This document shows, piece after piece, positions 48,194-57,900 of a DNA stretch of 64,000 bases. Source of the stretch: Jannaschia sp. S6380 (GTDB lineage: Bacteria > Pseudomonadota > Alphaproteobacteria > Rhodobacterales > Rhodobacteraceae); NCBI RefSeq assembly GCF_023015695.1, contig NZ_JALKAS010000002.1, positions 310,001 to 374,000 on the forward strand. The letters are read 5' to 3'. Both the position numbers and the translations under genes were made by a program. How positions within the stretch are numbered: the first letter of the stretch is position 1; every line of letters starts with the position of its first letter. The notes beneath the pieces are model-generated. The model made no database searches and was not told where the DNA came from. It saw only the letters and a list, made by a program, of their open reading frames with translations.

Positions 48194-50347
48194 TCAATCG
48201 CGGCGGAAGATTCCGCCCAGGACGTCCATCAGGATGCGCTCGGCGATGTCCGGCTCCCGGTGCTGGCGCTGCCGCTGCTGCGGCTCGCGCGCGACCTGCG
48301 GTTGCGGATCGGGGCGCGGCGTGGCGGCCGGTTCGATCATCGGCAGCGGCGTGACCGGCGTGCCCTCGTGGACGCGGGTCATCGTCTCGCGCCAGATCTC
48401 GGCCGGCAGACCGCCGCCGGTCACGCCCTTCAGCGGCGTGTTGTCGTCGTAGCCCATCCAGACGCCCGCGACATAGTCGCCGGTGAAGCCCACGAACCAC
48501 GCGTCGCGCGCGGCCTGGGTCGTCCCGGTCTTGCCGGCGGCCGGGCGCCCGTCGGGCAGCTGCGCCCGGGTTCCCGTCCCCTCGGCGATGACGCGCGACA
48601 TCATGTAGACCAGTTGCCGGGCGGCGTCGTCGGTGATGACCCGTTCGCCCAAGCCGCTGTCATGGTCCAAGAGCGGCGTGTTCTCGCCCCGCAGGGTCAG
48701 CGAGGACAGGCCATAGGGCGTGACGCTCGTGCCGCCGTTCAGGATGCCGGCATAGGCGCCGGTCATCTCCAGCAGGGTGCTCTCGCTGACGCCCAGGGCC
48801 AGGGCCGGCCCTTCGGCCAGGTCGCTTTCGATGCCGAACTGCGTGGCGACGTTGCGGACGACGTCGCGTCCGACATTCTCGGACAGGCGGACGGTCGCCG
48901 CGTTGAGCGAGCGGGCCAGCGCCTCGGTCAGCGAAACTTCGCCGTAGAACTGGTTGGTGTAGTTGTCGGGCGAATAGGTGCCCGAACCGGGCACGTCGAT
49001 CGCCAGTTCGCTGTCCAGCACCGTCGAGTTGTAGCGCCAACCAAGGTCGAGCGCGGCGGCATAGACGAACGGCTTGAAGCTGGACCCGGTCTGCCGCACG
49101 GCCTGGATGGCGCGGTTGAACTGGCCGCCGCCGCGCGTGTCGCGGCCCCCGACCATGGCGCGCACGGCCCCGTCGGCGGACATGACCACGATCGCGGCCT
49201 GCGCCTCCGAGCCCGGGGAGACCTTGGTCTCGAACACATGGCGCAACGCGCGTTCGGCGGCCTTCTGGATGCTCTGGTCCAGCGTGGTGCGCACGATCAC
49301 GTCCTCGGTCGTCTCGCCGGTCAGGAAATCGGGGCCGTCCGACATCACCCAATCGGCAAAATAGCCGCCGGTGTCCTGGCGCGCGGCCGGCGACAGCGTG
49401 GCGGGGTTCTCCATCGCGCGGGTGAATTCCGCGCTGTTGAGCAGGCCCTGGTCGCGCATTAGCACCAGCACCGTCCTGGCGCGGTCCTGCGCGCGCTGCA
49501 GGTTGTTGGTGGGCGCATAGTAGGACGGCGCCGGCAGCAGGCCCGAAAGCATGGCCGCCTCGGTCGGCTCCAGCCGGGCGACGGACTTGCCGAAATACCG
49601 CTGCGACGCGGCGGCGAACCCGCGCGCGCCCGCGCCCAGATAGGCGCGGTTGAGGTAGATCGACAGGATTTCGTCCTTGGAGAACTTCGCCTCGAGCGCG
49701 AAGGCGTAGGGGATCTCCTTCAGCTTGCGCCAGACACTGCCGGCCCGGCAATCCGCCTCGAACTGCGCCTCGGTCATGCCGGAGGTCGGATCGTAGTCGT
49801 TGCCCAGGCACAGGAGTTTCGCCACCTGCTGCGTGATCGTCGACCCGCCCGAGCCCGAGAATGGCCCCCGGCCGGCCCGCAGGTTGGTGCGCATCGCCCC
49901 CGCGATCCCGCGCGGACTGATGCCCAGATGGCGGTAGAAGCGCTTGTCCTCGGACGCGATGACGGCGTTGGCCAGATGCGGCGAGACGCCCTCCATCGTG
50001 ATCAGCCCGCCGAAATTGTCGCCGCGCCACGCGAATGTCCGCCCCTCGCGGTCCTGCAGCGTGACCGACCCGCGGGCGCGCCCGTCGGCCAGCGTCGCCA
50101 TGTCGGGAATGCGGGTGTAGTTCCAGGCCGTGGCCACCGCCAGGATCAGCGCGACCACGACCGCGCCGCGCCAGGCCAACGCCCAGCCCAGTCGCAATGC
50201 GAACCGGAACGGCCACAGGATCCAGCCCAGCAAGCCGCGCCGCGGCGCCGCGCGCCGCGTGCGTTTCTTCGGCGCCGTGCGCTTGGCCGGGGCACGCGCC
50301 GTCCGCCGCTTGTCGGCCACCAGGCGCTTCTTCGTGGGTTTGGCCAT
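48194..50347 (-). CDS. class A penicillin-binding protein (PBP1A-like)
   Basis: This 717-residue bifunctional enzyme polymerises and cross-links peptidoglycan. It has a basic N-terminal tail, one membrane segment, the GT51 motifs ASEDKRFYRHLGISPRG and GGSTITQQVAKLLCLG, and the transpeptidase motifs with the catalytic Ser in TGSSFKPFVYAA and KTG in AAGKTGTTQAARDAWFVGF. GGGATGAG precedes the ATG at 50347; a GTG one codon earlier is possible. The C-terminus is a Gln/Arg-rich tail. Confidence 0.92.
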   Translation of the reverse strand: MAKPTKKRLVADKRRTARAPAKRTAPKKRTRRAAPRRGLLGWILWPFRFALRLGWALAWRGAVVVALILAVATAWNYTRIPDMATLADGRARGSVTLQDREGRTFAWRGDNFGGLITMEGVSPHLANAVIASEDKRFYRHLGISPRGIAGAMRTNLRAGRGPFSGSGGSTITQQVAKLLCLGNDYDPTSGMTEAQFEADCRAGSVWRKLKEIPYAFALEAKFSKDEILSIYLNRAYLGAGARGFAAASQRYFGKSVARLEPTEAAMLSGLLPAPSYYAPTNNLQRAQDRARTVLVLMRDQGLLNSAEFTRAMENPATLSPAARQDTGGYFADWVMSDGPDFLTGETTEDVIVRTTLDQSIQKAAERALRHVFETKVSPGSEAQAAIVVMSADGAVRAMVGGRDTRGGGQFNRAIQAVRQTGSSFKPFVYAAALDLGWRYNSTVLDSELAIDVPGSGTYSPDNYTNQFYGEVSLTEALARSLNAATVRLSENVGRDVVRNVATQFGIESDLAEGPALALGVSESTLLEMTGAYAGILNGGTSVTPYGLSSLTLRGENTPLLDHDSGLGERVITDDAARQLVYMMSRVIAEGTGTRAQLPDGRPAAGKTGTTQAARDAWFVGFTGDYVAGVWMGYDDNTPLKGVTGGGLPAEIWRETMTRVHEGTPVTPLPMIEPAATPRPDPQPQVAREPQQRQRQHREPDIAERILMDVLGGIFRRD

Positions 50348-50607
50348 CACTGCTCATCCCGTGGGGGGTGTTTTGCGCGTCAAGATAGGTGAGGCGCGGG
50401 GGAATGTGCACCCCATGGATCGATTGCTTTGCACATGCAGCATTCCGGCAGCGTCTAAAAATCGGGCATGTCGCCGCGATCGGAGGAAAATTGGGGCAAC
50501 CCGCGTCCGGACGGCAGCCGGAACCCGCCTATGCATTGCGCCCCGTGGGCCGCCTTCGTGATCTTCCCCCATCCGGTCCGCAGGGCCGCAGGAAGAAGGG
50601 GAATGAC

Positions 50608-50946
50608 GTGAAACTGATCATTGCAGCGATCAAGCCGTTCAAGCTGGAGGAGGTGCGCGAGGCGCTGACCAATCTCGGCGTGCGCGGCATGATGGTCACC
50701 GAGATCAAGGGCTTCGGCAGCCAGTCCGGCCATACCGAGATCTACCGCGGCGCCGAATACGCCGTGAATTTCGTCCCGAAGATCAAGCTGGAGATCGTCG
50801 TACCCGCCACGATGGCCGACCAGGTCGTCGAGACCATCGCCGCGACCGCCAAGACCGACAAGATCGGCGACGGCAAGATCTTCGTCCTGGACGTCGAGCA
50901 GGCCGTGCGCGTCCGCACCGGCGAGCTGAACGACGACGCGATCTGA
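50608..50946 (+). CDS. glnK: nitrogen regulatory protein PII (GlnK)
   Basis: This 112-residue PII protein senses ATP/ADP, 2-oxoglutarate and glutamine. The T-loop has the uridylylation tyrosine Y51 in YRGAEYAVNFVPK, and the C-terminal VRVRTGELNDDAI is complete. It begins with GTG (VKLIIAAIKPFKLEEV) after AAGGGG. It is followed 26 bases later by amtB, the classic pair in which PII blocks the ammonium channel at high nitrogen. The 260 bases upstream, shared with the PBP gene, should hold a nitrogen-regulated promoter, though I see no convincing site. Confidence 0.95.
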   Translation: MKLIIAAIKPFKLEEVREALTNLGVRGMMVTEIKGFGSQSGHTEIYRGAEYAVNFVPKIKLEIVVPATMADQVVETIAATAKTDKIGDGKIFVLDVEQAVRVRTGELNDDAI

Positions 50947-50972
50947 TCCACATCATCAGGGGAATTGACCAC

Positions 50973-52307
50973 ATGAAACTCCGCAACGCATGCCTGTCCG
51001 CCGCGGCCCTTTCGATCCTGCCCACCATGGCGCTGGCGCAGGACGTCGCCGTGCCCGAATTCGCGACCTATGCCGACACGGCCTATATCTTCAACACGCT
51101 GCTGTTCCTGGTGGGCGGCTTCCTCGTCTTCTGGATGGCCGCAGGGTTCGCCATGCTGGAAGCCGGGCTCGTCCGGTCGAAGAACGTGACGATGCAGCTC
51201 ACCAAGAACATCTCGCTCTTCTCGATCGCGGCGATCATGTACTGGCTGATCGGATACGGGATCATGTATCCCGGCGATGACTGGACCGTGGTCGGATACC
51301 TGGGCGCGCTTTTCGTGCCCGCCGTGCTGGAGCCCGTAGGCGCCGGGGCCGACATGGTCGACGTGACATATGCCTCCGTCGGATCGGACTTCTTCTTCCA
51401 GCTGATGTTCGTCGCCACCACCGCGTCGATCGTGTCGGGCACCTTGGCCGAGCGGATCAAGCTCTGGCCGTTCCTGGCCTTCATCGTCGTGCTGACCGGG
51501 CTGATCTACCCGATCGAGGCGTCGTGGCAGTGGGGCGGCGGCTGGCTGTCGGAAGCGGGCTTCTCGGACTTCGCGGGATCCACCCTCGTCCATGCCGCCG
51601 GTGGCTTCGCCGCATTGGCGGGTGCCATCGTCCTGGGGCCGCGTCTGGGCAAGTACGCCAAGGACGGGCGCGTGGTGCCGATGCCGGGTTCCAACCTCGC
51701 GCTCGCCACGCTGGGCACATTCATCCTGTGGCTGGGATGGTTCGGCTTCAACGGCGCGTCGCAGCTGGCCATGGGCACGATCGGGGACGTCACCGACATC
51801 AGCCGGATCTTCGCCAACACCAACATGGCCGCTGCCGCCGGTGCGGTCGCCGCGCTGTTGATGACGCAGATCATCTACAATAAGGTCGACCTGACGATGG
51901 TGCTGAACGGTGCGCTGGCGGGCCTGGTCTCGATCACGGCGGGGCCGCTCGACCCGACCCTGTTCGGCGCGCTCTGGATCGGGGCGGTCGGCGGCATCAT
52001 CGTGGTCTTCGCGGTGCCGATGCTGGACCGGATGAAGATCGACGACGTGGTCGGCGCGATCCCCGTCCACCTGATCGCCGGCTTCTGGGGCACGCTGGTG
52101 GTGCCGGTCTATACCGACGGCACGTCCTTCGGCACGCAGATCCTGGGCTTCGTCGCCATCGGCGCCTTCGTCTTCATCGCCAGCCTCGTGGTCTGGCTGA
52201 TCCTGAAGGCGCTGGGCGGCATCCGCGTGGACGAGGAGGCGGAGATCAACGGTCTCGACATGGCCGAGCTGGGGATGGAGGCCTACCCGGAATTCGCGCG
52301 CGGCTGA
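50973..52307 (+). CDS. amtB: ammonium transporter
   Basis: This 444-residue membrane protein has a cleavable signal peptide (MKLRNACLSAAALSILPTMALAQ) and 11 membrane helices. Ammonium transporter motifs include FWMAAGFAMLEAGLVRSKN, DFAGSTLVHAAGGFAALAG with the first pore His, and GWFGFNGAS. It moves ammonium into the cell under glnK control. A strong hairpin follows the stop. Confidence 0.94.
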   Translation: MKLRNACLSAAALSILPTMALAQDVAVPEFATYADTAYIFNTLLFLVGGFLVFWMAAGFAMLEAGLVRSKNVTMQLTKNISLFSIAAIMYWLIGYGIMYPGDDWTVVGYLGALFVPAVLEPVGAGADMVDVTYASVGSDFFFQLMFVATTASIVSGTLAERIKLWPFLAFIVVLTGLIYPIEASWQWGGGWLSEAGFSDFAGSTLVHAAGGFAALAGAIVLGPRLGKYAKDGRVVPMPGSNLALATLGTFILWLGWFGFNGASQLAMGTIGDVTDISRIFANTNMAAAAGAVAALLMTQIIYNKVDLTMVLNGALAGLVSITAGPLDPTLFGALWIGAVGGIIVVFAVPMLDRMKIDDVVGAIPVHLIAGFWGTLVVPVYTDGTSFGTQILGFVAIGAFVFIASLVVWLILKALGGIRVDEEAEINGLDMAELGMEAYPEFARG

Positions 52308-52336
52308 CGCGCGTTGCCGGATCTCACGCAATACGA

Positions 52337-52369
52337 ACCCCCGGGCGAGCGATTGCCCGGGGGTCTTCC
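52337..52369 (+). terminator. terminator after amtB
   Basis: A perfect 10 bp stem ACCCCCGGGC/GCCCGGGGGT (52337-52346 with 52355-52364) lies 29 bases after amtB and is followed by CTTCCT. It also sits downstream of the OmpA-like gene on the other strand and could serve both. Confidence 0.7.
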
Positions 52370-52411
52370 TGTTCGGTGGCGCACTACCTTGCGGCAGGCC
52401 GAGCGCACGGG

Positions 52412-53191
52412 CTACATCTCACCACAGATCAGGTCCGCCTCGCCCCGGCGAACTTCGTCGCGCAGGTCGTCCGGATTCTCCCAGAAATTGCCCGGCGTCC
52501 AACAAGCCTTGCCTTCGACCGCCGTGCCATGGCGATTGATGCAGATCGCCCGGGGCTCGTTGCACAGGCTCGGCCCCGCGGGCGCATCGGGCCGCTCTAT
52601 CGGGGCCATCGCGCGCAGGGCATAGATCGAAACCCGCCGGTTCACCGCCCGGTTGGCCCGCGCCGTGCCGCTGGACGAGTTCACCATGTTGTCCACCAGC
52701 GGACACGCATTACCCCGCCCGTCGAAGATCAGCGTGATGTCCGAGCCGAGCACTTCGCCGCAGAAGGCATCGTCATTGTCGATGTCCCCGCGCGCGACGG
52801 TGAACGACGTGAGCCCATGGGTTTCGAGCGTCGCGGTCAGCATCTCCGCCACCGTCTCGCCGCGGACCATGGCGCGCCGGTCGTATTCGTCCGCTCCGAT
52901 CCCGCGGAAGGAGGAGGCGTGTCCGATCAGTCGCAGGCACACGAGGGGATCGGCGTCATCCTGGCTGTCGGCAACGTGTCGGGCGATGTCGCCCAGCGCG
53001 TCGCGCTGCGCCGTCGTGGTGTCCGTCTGATGCGCCGGAAAGTCGTTGATCGTCCAGGCCGGGCGCCAGGGATCGCAGACCTGCGGATTGCATTCCGCGA
53101 TGTCGCAGGCGGCCGCGGCCGGGGAGGCGAGGGCGGCGCAGCCGAGCGTCAGCGCCAGCAACGCGGGGCGGAAGTCTGTCGCACTTTTCAT
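52412..53191 (-). CDS. exported Cys-rich protein with an OmpA-like domain
   Basis: This 259-residue protein has a signal peptide (MKSATDFRPALLALTLGCAALASPAAAA). It resembles a divergent OmpA C-terminal peptidoglycan-binding domain: GHASSFRGIGADEYDRRAMVRGETVAEML (about 90-118) and ANRAVNRRVSIY (179-190), which matches the NRRVEI-type end of that fold. It has ten Cys residues after the signal peptide, suggesting disulfides, and a Cys-containing tail. It follows the MACPF-like gene by 34 bases and is probably co-transcribed with it. Confidence 0.65.
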   Translation of the reverse strand: MKSATDFRPALLALTLGCAALASPAAAACDIAECNPQVCDPWRPAWTINDFPAHQTDTTTAQRDALGDIARHVADSQDDADPLVCLRLIGHASSFRGIGADEYDRRAMVRGETVAEMLTATLETHGLTSFTVARGDIDNDDAFCGEVLGSDITLIFDGRGNACPLVDNMVNSSSGTARANRAVNRRVSIYALRAMAPIERPDAPAGPSLCNEPRAICINRHGTAVEGKACWTPGNFWENPDDLRDEVRRGEADLICGEM

Positions 53192-53225
53192 GACGTCACC
53201 TCGTTGAAAAAGGGGGACCCGGCGG

Positions 53226-54386
53226 TCAGCCGATATTGACGAAATGCGCGAAATTGATCGCCTGGCCGGTTCCGGGGGCTTCGAACACGGGCGGACCGAT
53301 GGGGAAATCCCCCGGCGGGCGTGGCGGATTGGTCCGTATCTCCCGCCGGTCCGGAAAAACCAGGGATGGCGGCGCGATGTCCTGCGGCAGCACGCACATC
53401 GTCCGGTCCCGCGCGCAACTGTCGGCGGCCGCGGCCATCCGGTTGAGGTTCCGGTTGCACTTGTTCAGACCCTCGCGAAAGTTCTGGACGTTGAAGGGTT
53501 TGAAGGCGTTGCGGTTGCGCAGGACGAAATCAATTTCGTTGCGCAGTTCGACCTGGTTCATGAAGTCCTCGGCCAGTTCGTCGAGGAACACGCGCGCCAC
53601 CTGCTCCTGCACGAAGCTGACGTCGTCATTGGGCAGCGCCAACTGATCATAGGGCGCCATCTCGGCGGTGATCGGAACCGCCACGCCATTGCTCAGATCC
53701 TGCTCGAACAGGCTGATCTCTGTCATCAGCTGGTCGATGTTGAAGACCGGTCGGGGGGAACCGCCGACCGCCATGATGAACATCTCGATCCGGTCGGTGC
53801 TTGAGTCGAAGCTCTCGGAGAAGTCGTTGGACGAGTTGACGGAGCCGCCCAGGACATTGCCGATGCGCAGCGACACGTCGACGCCCAGTTCCTCCTGCTT
53901 CTCCTCGCTCTCCGACTCGATCCGCGCCACCGCATAGAACACGCCGCCCGATACGATCTGGCGGACGAAGTGACTGCCGAACCTCTGGTGGAATCGCTCG
54001 GATTTGGGCGGAACGAAGGCCAGCAGGTCATGCCCGTCCTGCGTCAGCCGCGCGTTGACTAGCCGCCGGGGCCGCCGCAGGACGGCGATGCGCAGAAGCA
54101 CGTTCGTGGATTTGCTCGACACCGCGACCCGTTCGCGGAAATCGACCTGCGCGCTGGCCCCGAAGCTCAGCGTCCGCACGCTCGCCCCGGCGGAAATCTC
54201 CATCGACTTCGCCAGATGGCTGGCGCTCGTCACCATGCCGAAATGGAAATCGGTGTTCAGGTTGCCGGTGCTGTCGTCGTCCACGCCGATGTCACCGATC
54301 ACGGCCGCCGACCGCAGGTCGGATGTCGCTTCGTTATAACCGATGCCCAGCATCGTGCCGACGGGGGCGTCTATCGAGAACGTCAT
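53226..54386 (-). CDS. probable MACPF/CDC-superfamily protein
   Basis: This 386-residue protein contains GSHFVRQIVSGG at residues 137-148, which fits the MACPF signature (aromatic)G[TS]H[FY]x6GG with Phe in the first place. Upstream is LGIGYNEATSDLR (13-25), as in the N-terminus of many MACPF proteins. Downstream is a Ser-rich stretch GGSVNSSNDFSESFDSSTD, then a GG and a segment ending VPITAEMAPYDQL, like the end of that domain. No signal peptide is visible, so export, if any, is by another route. The C-terminus is Pro-rich. Pore formation is not shown; immune-like, toxin and structural roles are all open. This assignment is by eye. Confidence 0.6.
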   Translation of the reverse strand: MTFSIDAPVGTMLGIGYNEATSDLRSAAVIGDIGVDDDSTGNLNTDFHFGMVTSASHLAKSMEISAGASVRTLSFGASAQVDFRERVAVSSKSTNVLLRIAVLRRPRRLVNARLTQDGHDLLAFVPPKSERFHQRFGSHFVRQIVSGGVFYAVARIESESEEKQEELGVDVSLRIGNVLGGSVNSSNDFSESFDSSTDRIEMFIMAVGGSPRPVFNIDQLMTEISLFEQDLSNGVAVPITAEMAPYDQLALPNDDVSFVQEQVARVFLDELAEDFMNQVELRNEIDFVLRNRNAFKPFNVQNFREGLNKCNRNLNRMAAAADSCARDRTMCVLPQDIAPPSLVFPDRREIRTNPPRPPGDFPIGPPVFEAPGTGQAINFAHFVNIG

Positions 54387-54512
54387 TTGATGAACCTCAG
54401 CTGATCGTGCCGGTGTTCAGGAATAGGGCACCACAGCGCGCATCCGGGCAAGTGAGGGAAACCGTGGTTGAATCGCGCCGCAACGGGCAATTCCGGTGGG
54501 CAAGTGTCGATC

Positions 54513-54546
54513 GAAAAACCCCCGGACGATCGAACGTCCGGGGGGG
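54513..54546 (-). terminator. rho-independent terminator of trxA
   Basis: A perfect 10 bp stem CCCCCGGACG/CGTCCGGGGG (54519-54528 with 54535-54544) is followed on the minus strand by TTTTTCG. It is 55 bases after the trxA stop and isolates it from the MACPF-like operon, whose promoter lies in the remaining 130 bases. Confidence 0.8.
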
Positions 54547-54600
54547 TATCTCATTGGAATTCAGAAGGTTCGTCGATGCCGGCAGTCCGGATATCGGGCG

Positions 54601-54921
54601 TCAGACGACGCCGTCGATCCAGTCCTTCAGCGCCGATTTCGGCGCGGCGCCGATCTTCTGGTCGACCGCCTGGCCGTCCTTGAACATGAACAGCGCCGGA
54701 ATGCCGCGGACACCCATCTGCGCGGGCGCGGCGGGGTTCTCGTCGACATTGACCTTCACGATCTTGATGCGTCCGTCATACTCCGCCGAAAGTTCTTCCA
54801 GCGCCGGGCCGATCTGCTTGCAGGGTCCGCACCATTCGGCCCAGAAATCGACGACGACGGGGATGTCGGACTGCTTGACGACCTCGTCGAAGGTGGCGTC
54901 GGTGGCGGCGATGGTGGCCAT
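54601..54921 (-). CDS. trxA: thioredoxin
   Basis: This 106-residue thioredoxin has the active site WCGPC at residues 30-34 and the cis-Pro region [12 protein letters not shown]. It reduces disulfides in cytoplasmic proteins and delivers electrons to reductases. AGGAGAG precedes the ATG. It lies 42 bases after the addA stop, at the end of the repair operon, and ends in its own terminator. Confidence 0.95.
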
Positions 54922-54963
54922 TGGAAACTCTCCTGCATGTTGCGACGGGCGCGGAGTCGGAAG

Positions 54964-57900
54964 CTAGGCAGGCGGCCCGGCCGGGTCAATGGCGGCCCAG
55001 GCCCCGGTCACCAGATCGTGCGGCAGATCCATCAGCAGGGGCGCCTTGGTCCACAGGATCGCCGTGCGGACGGTGCGGTCGGGCCAGATGGTTTCTGCGG
55101 CGCGGCGATAGGCGCCCATCTGCGCCAGGATGCCGGACGGCGTGCGGGCCGGGTCGTCGGGGATCGCGACGTTGGACTTGAAATCGACGATCGTGACCGT
55201 GTCGCCGTCCAAAAGGACGCGGTCGATCGTGCCGACGATGGCGGGCCGGACGCCTTCGGCGGGCAGGGCGAAGGGCAGCTCGGCCAGTGTGCCGGGGGCG
55301 AAGACATGCGCGAATTCGGGCGCCAGAAGCACGGATCGCGCCTCGGCCAGCAGGGCGGGGATCTCGGCCTCGTGTATTGCATCGGCGTATCGGCGCAGGA
55401 GGTCGGGGGCCGCGCGCGCCCAGTCCGTCGGATCGAGACCCGGCAAATGTTCCAGCAAGGCGTGGATCGCGGTTCCATGGCGCCGTGCCGCCTCGCCGTC
55501 CCGGTCGCCCTCGCCCGGTAGGGTCTTGGGGCCGGGCAGGGTCGACGGGGCCAGGCGCCGGGCCGCGCGGGCCGGCGGCGGGGCCGGACGCTCATGCCAG
55601 TCGAAGGCCGGCGGCGGCGCGACGGCGCCGGGTGCGACGCGGGCTCCGGGCGACCAGTTGCCCAATTCCAGGCGCAACCCCGTGCCACAGTCGAACTCAT
55701 GCGGACGTGCGCCGCAGGCCTGCATCCCGGCCTCGACCATGCCGTGCCAGCTGTCGCGCGGGTCCTCGCCGGTCGTGCCCGCCGCGCCGACGATCAACCA
55801 GTTCTCCGCCCGCGTCAGCCCAACATAGAGGAGACGGTCGCGTTCCTCCGCCTCGGCCTGCCGGGCCCGTTCGTCGGCGGCGTGAAGGGCAGGCGACCAG
55901 CCGGCCTTGGGCGCGGCCCAGACATGGGGACCGTCGGGCAGGCGGAACACGCCAGAAAGGGCGCGCGCGCGGCGCGTCATCGTCTCGGGCAGGATCACGA
56001 CGGGCGCCTCCAGTCCCTTGGCGCCATGCACCGTCATCACCCGGATCGACCCCTTTCCGCCCTGGCGCTTGACCTCGACATCGGCCGAGGCCAGCCAGCC
56101 CAGGAACCCCGTCAGGCTGGGGACCTCCAGCTGTTCGTAGGCCAGCGCCTGCGCCAGCAGCGCGTCGATCGCCTCCGCCGCCTCGGCGCCCAGCCGCGCC
56201 AGCAGCCGGCGACGACCGTCATGGACCACGAGGATCCGCTGCAACAACTCGTAGGGACGTTCGAAATCGGCATGGGCCAGCAGATCGGCAAGCATCGCCT
56301 GGGTGTCAGGGTCGCTCCCCCGCATGCGCAGCGCGTCCCAAAGCCGCCCCTCGCGCTTGTGCGCCAGCGCGAACAGGCCGGCCTCGTCGGTCGCGCCCAG
56401 CGGCGAGCGCAGAACCGTCGCCAGCGACAGGTCGTCGGCCGGCGTCGCCACCCAGGTCAGCGTGGCGATCAAATCGCGGACGGCCATGTCGTCGGACAGG
56501 CGCAGCCTGTCGGCGCCGGCCAGGTCCAGCCCGCGTGCCTTGCAGGCGCGGACGATGTGATGAAACAGGTCGCGCCGCCGCTGCAACAGGATCAGGATGT
56601 CGCCGGCCTCGACCGCGCGCCGGTCGGTGCCGCGCCCGACGGGGACCCGATCCGCAATCATCCGCTCGATCGCGGTGGCGATATGGCCGGCCAGGGCGAC
56701 ATTCGCGTCCTTCCGGCCCCGCCGGTCGACCGGATCGTACCATCGCCGGTCCTGCACGTCCTCCTTTTCGGTCTCGAGCGCGGGCCAGAGGTCGATACGG
56801 CCCGGCATCCTGTCCTGGAACGCGATGTGGCGCGGCGGCGGGCCCAGCCCGCTGTCGTCGACGAAAACGGCGTCGACCAGATCGAGGATCACCGGGGAGG
56901 AGCGGAACGAATGCCGCAACTCCCGCTCCGCCATCGGGGCGGGGCCGGGCGCGAACAACTCCGTCAGCCGGTCGCGCATGCGGTCGAAGGCGGCGAGGTC
57001 CGCGCCCTGGAATGCATAGATCGACTGCTTCCGGTCGCCCACGACGAAGGCGGTGCGGCGGATGTCGGGCCGCGCACCCGCGCCGGCCGCGAACTCGGCC
57101 AGCAGGCTGACGATCACCTGCCATTGGTCGGGCGCGGTGTCCTGCGCCTCGTCCACCAGAATGTGGTCGATCCCGCCGTCGAGCTTGAACAGCACCCATT
57201 GCGCGAGGCTCGAGCTCGACAGCAGGTGTCGCGTCCGCGCGATCTGGTCGTCGAAATCGAGCCACCCGCGCGCCCGCTTTCGGGTCTCGACCCGTTCGAC
57301 GAATTCGGGGGCGAAGGCATGCAGGACGAGGGTCTGCTCCAGCGTCTCGAAGGCACCGATCCGGGCGATGCCATCCTCGGCACGTGCAATCAACGCCTCG
57401 AACGTCTCGACCAGGGGGCCATGCGTCCCCTCCCGGACCGCCTTGGGCCAGTTGCCGGTCTTGCGGGGTGTGCCCGATGCCGTCAGGCACGCCTTGCACA
57501 TCGCGGCGAAGCGATCGGCCGGATGGGCCCCGCGCCCGGGCGCCAGCGTGGCGGCGGCCTGGGCCAGCGCCTTGCCCGGTGCCCCGGCCGCATCGTCCAG
57601 GAACGCGTCGATCAGCGCCGCGGCCTCGGGCCCGGCCACGTCCGCCAGAACGGCGGCCGGATCGGCGTCGCGAATGCCCAGTGCGGCGCGCAGTTCCGCC
57701 TCGTCCGGCGGCGGGGCGCCGTCGCGCATCCGGCCGACGGCGGACAGGAACGCGGCCGGTTCGGTGTCCGACAAGCGCGCGCCCACCGCATCCACCAGGC
57801 CGCGCGTCGCGGGGTCGTCGCCCATCTTGTCGAGAACCTCGGCATGCAGGCGTGCCGTGGCGGTCTCGTCCATCTCGGCGAAGGCGGGAGTCACGCCGGC

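Follow-up and report, generated by a model that had tools for sequence, protein, structure and literature searches.

A divergent MACPF/SNTX-like protein predicted from Jannaschia sp. S6380, encoded beside an exported-looking, cysteine-rich partner

Bacteroidales secreted antimicrobial proteins (BSAPs) are bacterial MACPF surface lipoproteins with a PF01823 domain, and their specificity lies in a C-terminal domain (PMC12853789). According to the Bth-MACPF report, most members from Bacteroides have lipoprotein signals, whereas the other bacterial MACPFs lack them (PMC2954219); on that account, bacterial MACPF proteins without a lipoprotein signal are already known. In a related family, the CDCLs, two-gene operons and a motif made up of F/Y-F/Y-Xn-YGR and a glycine pair are described (PMC7527733); there the CDCLs and the short CDCL-S proteins appear as divergent, mostly bacterial CDC/MACPF members in many phyla. 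Pleurotolysin B is a MACPF protein that has an aegerolysin as its small, separate partner.

The locus described here consists of two genes on the minus strand of the window, by which we mean the whole 64-kb stretch of DNA analysed. The first (53226..54386) encodes a MACPF/SNTX-like protein of 386 residues, P0001, and the second, which starts 34 bases downstream (52412..53191), encodes an exported-looking protein of 259 residues with an OmpA pattern, P0002. A GAGG-type sequence closely precedes the start of each gene. There is no room for a signal peptide on P0001 because an in-frame stop lies 11 codons upstream of its ATG, whilst the N-terminus of P0002 is, as judged by eye, a signal-like region. 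Of the 11 cysteines of P0002, a single one belongs to the signal region, and the other ten follow it. The leaderless protein with an exported, cysteine-rich neighbour proposed in the initial annotation is therefore found as described.

Compared with the systems above, the branch to which P0001 belongs resembles the BSAPs in that its variable C-terminal modules parallel their specificity domain; P0001 itself differs in lacking a signal, in scoring below the PF01823 cut-off and in having no matched C-terminal module. It shares with the CDCLs and CDCL-S proteins a divergent, bacterial character and has the glycine pair, at residues 208–209, but not the YGR, and whereas both genes of a CDCL pair belong to the pore family, the partner here is a different, exported, cysteine-rich protein. 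The likeness to pleurotolysin B, which is among the weak matches of our 16-sequence profile, lies in the separate small partner, although P0002 has no aegerolysin match. Stonustoxin (4wvm), Perforin-like protein 1 (5oup) and Aeg-L (9uj0) are like P0001 in profile comparisons over most of the core, with a common N-terminal LG-x-GY stretch and common G...GG and GG landmarks; P0001 differs from them in being bacterial and distant and in having no further domain matched. The pair is a variant on this known background: its core is stonustoxin-like, there is no recognition module fused to that core, and its partner is of another type. Literature searches found no relevant paper on Aeg-L or 9UJ0, and no MACPF paper was among the matches listed for MACPF with phage defence or with alphaproteobacterial names. 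In 9uj0_A, which heads the PDB matches, a protease-site sequence that looks engineered directly follows the matched core.

Relationship of P0001 to the MACPF superfamily

The MACPF signature has the form (Y/F)-G-(T/S)-H-(F/Y)-x6-G-G. A pattern search located GSHFVRQIVSGG at residues 137–148 of P0001 (53943..53978, minus strand), in agreement with the initial annotation of a 386-residue reading frame bearing a MACPF-type motif, and the full signature is found as FGSHFVRQIVSGG at residues 136–148 in both P0001 and P0008, its homologue in Roseivivax lentus. The other 14 rows of the 16-sequence core alignment (A6) have both G137 and G147 and have not kept the G-S-H, and F132, G137, G147 and G208 are invariant in all 16. 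Loci L016, L023 and L024 are absent from A6, the local profile not having returned them.

The Pfam MACPF model (PF01823) gives P0001 16.8 bits, below its gathering cut-off of 21.5, which is a curation threshold and not a structural feature. P0001 went unreported in the whole-genome Pfam search, and three of the 16 rows of A6 match the model at E ≤ 1 (best E 0.0021). Searched on its own against the PDB, P0001 matches Aeg-L with an E value of 1.6e-5 and Perforin-like protein 1 with 8e-5. The 16-sequence profile gives 1.7e-11 for Aeg-L, 3.2e-8 for stonustoxin alpha and 4.7e-8 for Perforin-like protein 1; the 16 chains that it returns at E ≤ 10, six of them below 0.01, are Aeg-L and 15 chains that we assign by name to the MACPF/CDC/SNTX superfamily. 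With a longer profile the values are 3.7e-14 for Aeg-L, 3.1e-4 for Perforin-like protein 1 and only 0.065 for stonustoxin alpha, and the 19 chains returned comprise ten from the superfamily or Aeg-L, one 'Unknown protein' and eight that are unrelated; these eight, which match only positions 250–327 in the C-terminal region, count against the assignment.

A gene in one genome of the phylum draw (G707, locus L024) is matched in one and the same frame at E 5.6e-5 when searched with the family profile and at 66.5 bits when searched with Pfam MACPF. Not itself included in A6, it reaches 31.9 bits against the profile of that alignment. When the core profile was aligned by hhalign with the protein of this gene, a canonical bacterial MACPF, the E value was 3.1e-6; two unrelated proteins gave 0.98 and 0.67. 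A two-row alignment used instead gave 0.0063, showing that the link to the G707 protein depends on the family and not on P0001 alone. Counting against the link, two local six-sequence profiles give this protein only 7 and 8 bits, and it was not among the matches of one local six-sequence profile.

P0001 is thus related to the superfamily by profile, and the MACPF identity claimed for it survives on this evidence although the Pfam cut-off was missed. We file it as a putative member of a divergent, stonustoxin-like branch that would have the superfamily fold, and the PDB matches of both P0001 and the family profile show that GSHFVRQIVSGG is more than a chance motif.

The MACPF/CDC/SNTX fold combines a bent central sheet and two clusters of TMH helices. 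AF2 models from two-row alignments had a mean pLDDT of 32.1 for P0001 and 38.9 for P0002, too low for use. Averaged over the 16 rows of the family, two-residue periodicity peaks at residues 68 (p 0.0005) and 173 (p 0.0015), with a lesser peak at 161. With the window and R. lentus rows removed, the peak at residue 68 was reached in none of 2000 shifts of the remaining 14 rows and that at residue 173 had p 0.026. Helical periodicity likewise peaks, at residues 219, 57 and 134, and the beta-periodicity of P0001 alone was not above shuffles over all positions (p(max) 0.24 and 0.46). Judged by comparison with aligned MACPF proteins, the beta-periodic segments would fall within the two segments that form the transmembrane hairpins. 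A candidate TMH1, centred on the peak at residue 68, would span approximately residues 54–93 (54108..54227, minus strand), and a candidate TMH2, containing the peaks at 161 and 173, approximately residues 158–198 (53793..53915, minus strand), the boundaries of both being ones that we infer.

The partner protein and the pair in Roseivivax lentus

Domains of the OmpA family have a diaminopimelate-binding Asp after GH(T), followed by an Arg. P0002 resembles OmpA-C-like domains such as YfiB in having the I/V-G-H type of start (here I-G-H) and the N-R-R-V end, with Arg residues in the stretch after its GHASS sequence. It differs from them in its ten cysteines and in having Ala and Ser in place of the Asp, at what we take to be the position of the peptidoglycan-binding aspartate. 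Pfam gave no match worth naming for P0002, with neither OmpA (PF00691) nor an aegerolysin family at E ≤ 10, and no OmpA match for P0009 at E ≤ 1; a TssL OmpA-type model in NCBIfam matched P0002 weakly (E 0.1), and a profile search aligned YfiB to it at only E 6.4. Since the ends are of the OmpA type and the aspartate is missing, we call P0002 OmpA-patterned and not OmpA. Of the initial description of an OmpA-like peptidoglycan-binding protein, the pattern stands; the family assignment is not supported by Pfam, and the peptidoglycan binding and cell-wall anchoring proposed there are conjectural.

Relatives of P0002 are rare. The draw totals given here and below (295 genomes for the family, 385 for the class and 299 for the phylum) each include the window's own genome. 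Besides that genome, the family draw gave two matches, one of them judged spurious, and the phylum draw one, in the same genome (G294) as the remaining family match. The spurious match, an OmpA-like one in G138, was rejected, its ORF being antisense to other ORFs. The protein in G294 (L007, 1393–2823) is a fusion in which an Aspzincin M35 peptidase domain accompanies the OmpA-like part, and it scores 16.9 bits against PF00691, below the cut-off of 27.2; by eye it has no evident signal peptide.

The same two genes are found 13 bases apart in R. lentus, where a homologue of P0002 lies beside the MACPF-like gene. The encoded proteins are 77% identical to P0001 and 61% identical to P0002, with nine of the ten non-signal cysteines of P0002 aligned and the tenth one column off. 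A blastn comparison of 7 kb around the pair with the 7.9-kb R. lentus locus aligned only stretches within the two genes. The pair has been inherited together in these two genomes, and the two-gene unit proposed initially is upheld by a single further genome, in which the pair has unrelated flanks; it is therefore not confined to the genome in which it was first noticed. Nei–Gojobori dN/dS against R. lentus is 0.145/1.44 (~0.10) for the first gene and 0.348/1.43 (~0.24) for the second, ratios that are rough because dS is high, and both genes are under purifying selection. The faster change of P0002 would fit an immunity or recognition role without proving one. At 13 other MACPF-like loci a simple ORF caller found no P0002-like ORF, which is a weak negative since the caller missed the MACPF-like ORF itself at 4 of the 13.

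Chromosomal setting

The pair occupies the spacer between the convergent genes trxA and amtB (52308–54600), which measures 2,293 bases in the window genome. Across the genus this spacer is a variable slot, with ORFs that differ between species (L045–L055). trxA and the end of amtB lie near each other in 18 of 19 congeners, 64 to 4,092 bases apart and fewer than 420 bases apart in seven, and none of the 19 has a match to P0001. The GC content of the insert is 0.648, as against 0.691 for the window, and the third-position GC of both genes is 0.85, as against 0.88–0.92 for four neighbours. Judged by eye, the slot in other congeners holds amidinohydrolase-like proteins (L045 and L048), glutathione-transferase-like and STAS-like ORFs and, in L049, a large autotransporter-like protein rich in repeats.

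Two 28-base terminator-like hairpins, found by pattern match and 82% alike, flank the pair, one after trxA and upstream of the pair (54517–54544; pattern match at 54519..54544, minus strand) and the other after amtB and downstream of it (52336–52363; pattern match at 52337..52364, plus strand). Two such hairpins were found where 1.7 would be expected in the region, so they are not evidence on their own. We rejected the idea that they are a target duplication: by eye, four of the seven short congener spacers (L031, L032, L037 and L044) also have two, and we therefore read the hairpins as terminators native to the genes amtB and trxA.

Several routes of acquisition and delivery were considered. 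A phage origin was rejected, as phage records contained no match to P0001; a scan of viral contigs, which reaches close relatives only, had no match for P0001, P0003 or P0002. That plasmids carry the partner was rejected too, since the plasmid search gave no match for P0002 or P0009, and tRNA integration was rejected with no such site found in the window. Delivery by a T6SS was likewise rejected, there being no VipB match in the genome.

The bacterial branch and possible roles of the pair

Relatives of P0001 were found, besides the window's own genome, in 3 of 295 genomes of the family draw, 3 of 385 of the class draw and 7 of 299 of the phylum draw, together with four records in the plasmid search; a scan of named genomes, which reaches close relatives only, yielded one locus. 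The branch is rare and scattered over Alphaproteobacteria, other Pseudomonadota, and plasmids of Streptomyces and Deinococcus, and its distribution is that of an accessory gene.

Thirteen relatives, in sets of six and seven, were scanned whole against Pfam, and in four of them a C-terminal module scored above the cut-off: beta/gamma crystallin in Streptomyces, GON in Deinococcus and in L061, and jacalin in L063. L014 had a ricin-type match below the cut-off. Pfam matched no C-terminal module in P0001 or in the relatives from R. lentus and Indioceanicola, and P0001, P0008 and P0003 end in short tails containing proline. A C-x6-C pair in the C-terminal region of P0001 (C324 and C331; 53394..53417, minus strand) is complete in 6 of the 10 rows of alignment A7 and in all nine rows of A1. 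Three relatives from the family draw (L003, L004 and L005, of which L003 and L005 lay outside the whole-protein scan) are longer MACPF-like proteins that appear by eye to be lipidated or membrane-anchored, and their C-terminal regions are alike and contain Cys. Small genes start 1 base downstream of the MACPF-like gene in Indioceanicola (L009, 9154–9615) and 3 bases downstream of that in G738 (L061, 4443–5180); neither has a Pfam match, and their positions suggest further two-gene units. On a Streptomyces plasmid, a gene for an LGFP-repeat protein (L011, 7430–7948) immediately precedes the MACPF-like gene with the crystallin module.

Our leading reading, which we hold only tentatively, is that the pair is a horizontally acquired, two-gene antagonism cassette consisting of a released pore-former and an envelope partner that protects or anchors. 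The product of the first gene would be a soluble, MACPF/SNTX-like monomer, made in the cytoplasm, which would leave the cell by lysis, in vesicles or by another non-Sec route and oligomerise on a target membrane, where residues ~54–93 and ~158–198 would refold into the beta-hairpins of the pore. The cysteine-rich envelope protein from the second gene would, as our first choice, protect the producer, or else anchor or target the pore-former, which has no match to the recognition modules found at the C-terminus of some relatives. The weapon, lysis and immunity roles suggested initially are likewise conjectural. In favour of the cassette are the profile matches and the G707 link, the two beta-periodic segments, the retention of the pair in R. 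lentus with similarity confined to the two genes, the lack of P0001 in the congeners and its place in a variable slot, the dN/dS values, the modules of the four relatives and the lack of a VipB match. Against it count the low pLDDT of both models, the beta-periodicity of P0001 alone, the weaker results of the longer and the six-sequence profiles, the 13 other loci without a P0002-like ORF and the presence of the pair in only two known genomes; moreover, the inner membrane would separate the leaderless pore-former from its exported partner.

The absence of a matched module from P0001 and from its R. lentus and Indioceanicola relatives, set beside the crystallin, GON or jacalin modules of the four others, also suits a bicomponent toxin. 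Here P0002 would be the recognition subunit in place of the fused module and would bring the pore-former to the surface of a target, much as an aegerolysin serves pleurotolysin B; possible targets include eukaryotes such as protists or algae. The small genes directly downstream of the relatives in L009 and L061 and the stonustoxin chains among the profile matches point the same way. We nevertheless consider this unlikely: P0002 has no match among lectins, aegerolysins or other binding families, it alone of the two proteins has a signal region, and the small genes, which match nothing in Pfam, may be unrelated to the second gene.

A role outside pore formation is likewise unlikely in our view. 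P0001 would then use the superfamily fold in a structural or adhesive role, and P0002 would be an unrelated envelope protein co-inherited by chance, as might be argued from the single other genome with the pair and from the lack of a P0002-like ORF at all 13 other loci. Yet the two genes are common to R. lentus without flanking similarity, both have dN/dS below 1, and the beta-periodic segments persist across the family. Self-directed lysis, with the pore-former attacking the producer's own inner membrane from inside for phage defence or programmed release and P0002 as its periplasmic control protein, would suit a signal-less P0001 with an exported partner across that membrane, but is improbable given that PADLOC matched neither of the two proteins at E ≤ 0.1, that no defence gene was noticed by eye among the ORFs of 50000–57000, that some relatives look lipidated or membrane-anchored, and that the Cys pair would suit an oxidising location.

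Returning to the cassette, a broader form of it, speculative and rather unlikely, would make stonustoxin-like bacterial pore-formers mobile cassettes in which the recognition or immunity part either is a C-terminal fusion or has a gene of its own, the separate part in the window genome and in R. lentus being a new cysteine-rich, OmpA-patterned envelope protein dedicated to the pore-former. If the pair is a working unit, it would be a simple system in which to follow how a MACPF protein leaves the cell, what it targets and how the producer survives. The standard MACPF model may score this branch too low: in the phylum draws, two apparently identical sets of 299 genomes, the family profile matched eight genomes including the window's own and Pfam MACPF two, with G707 the only genome common to both, and the perforin-like branch may therefore be under-counted in bacteria.
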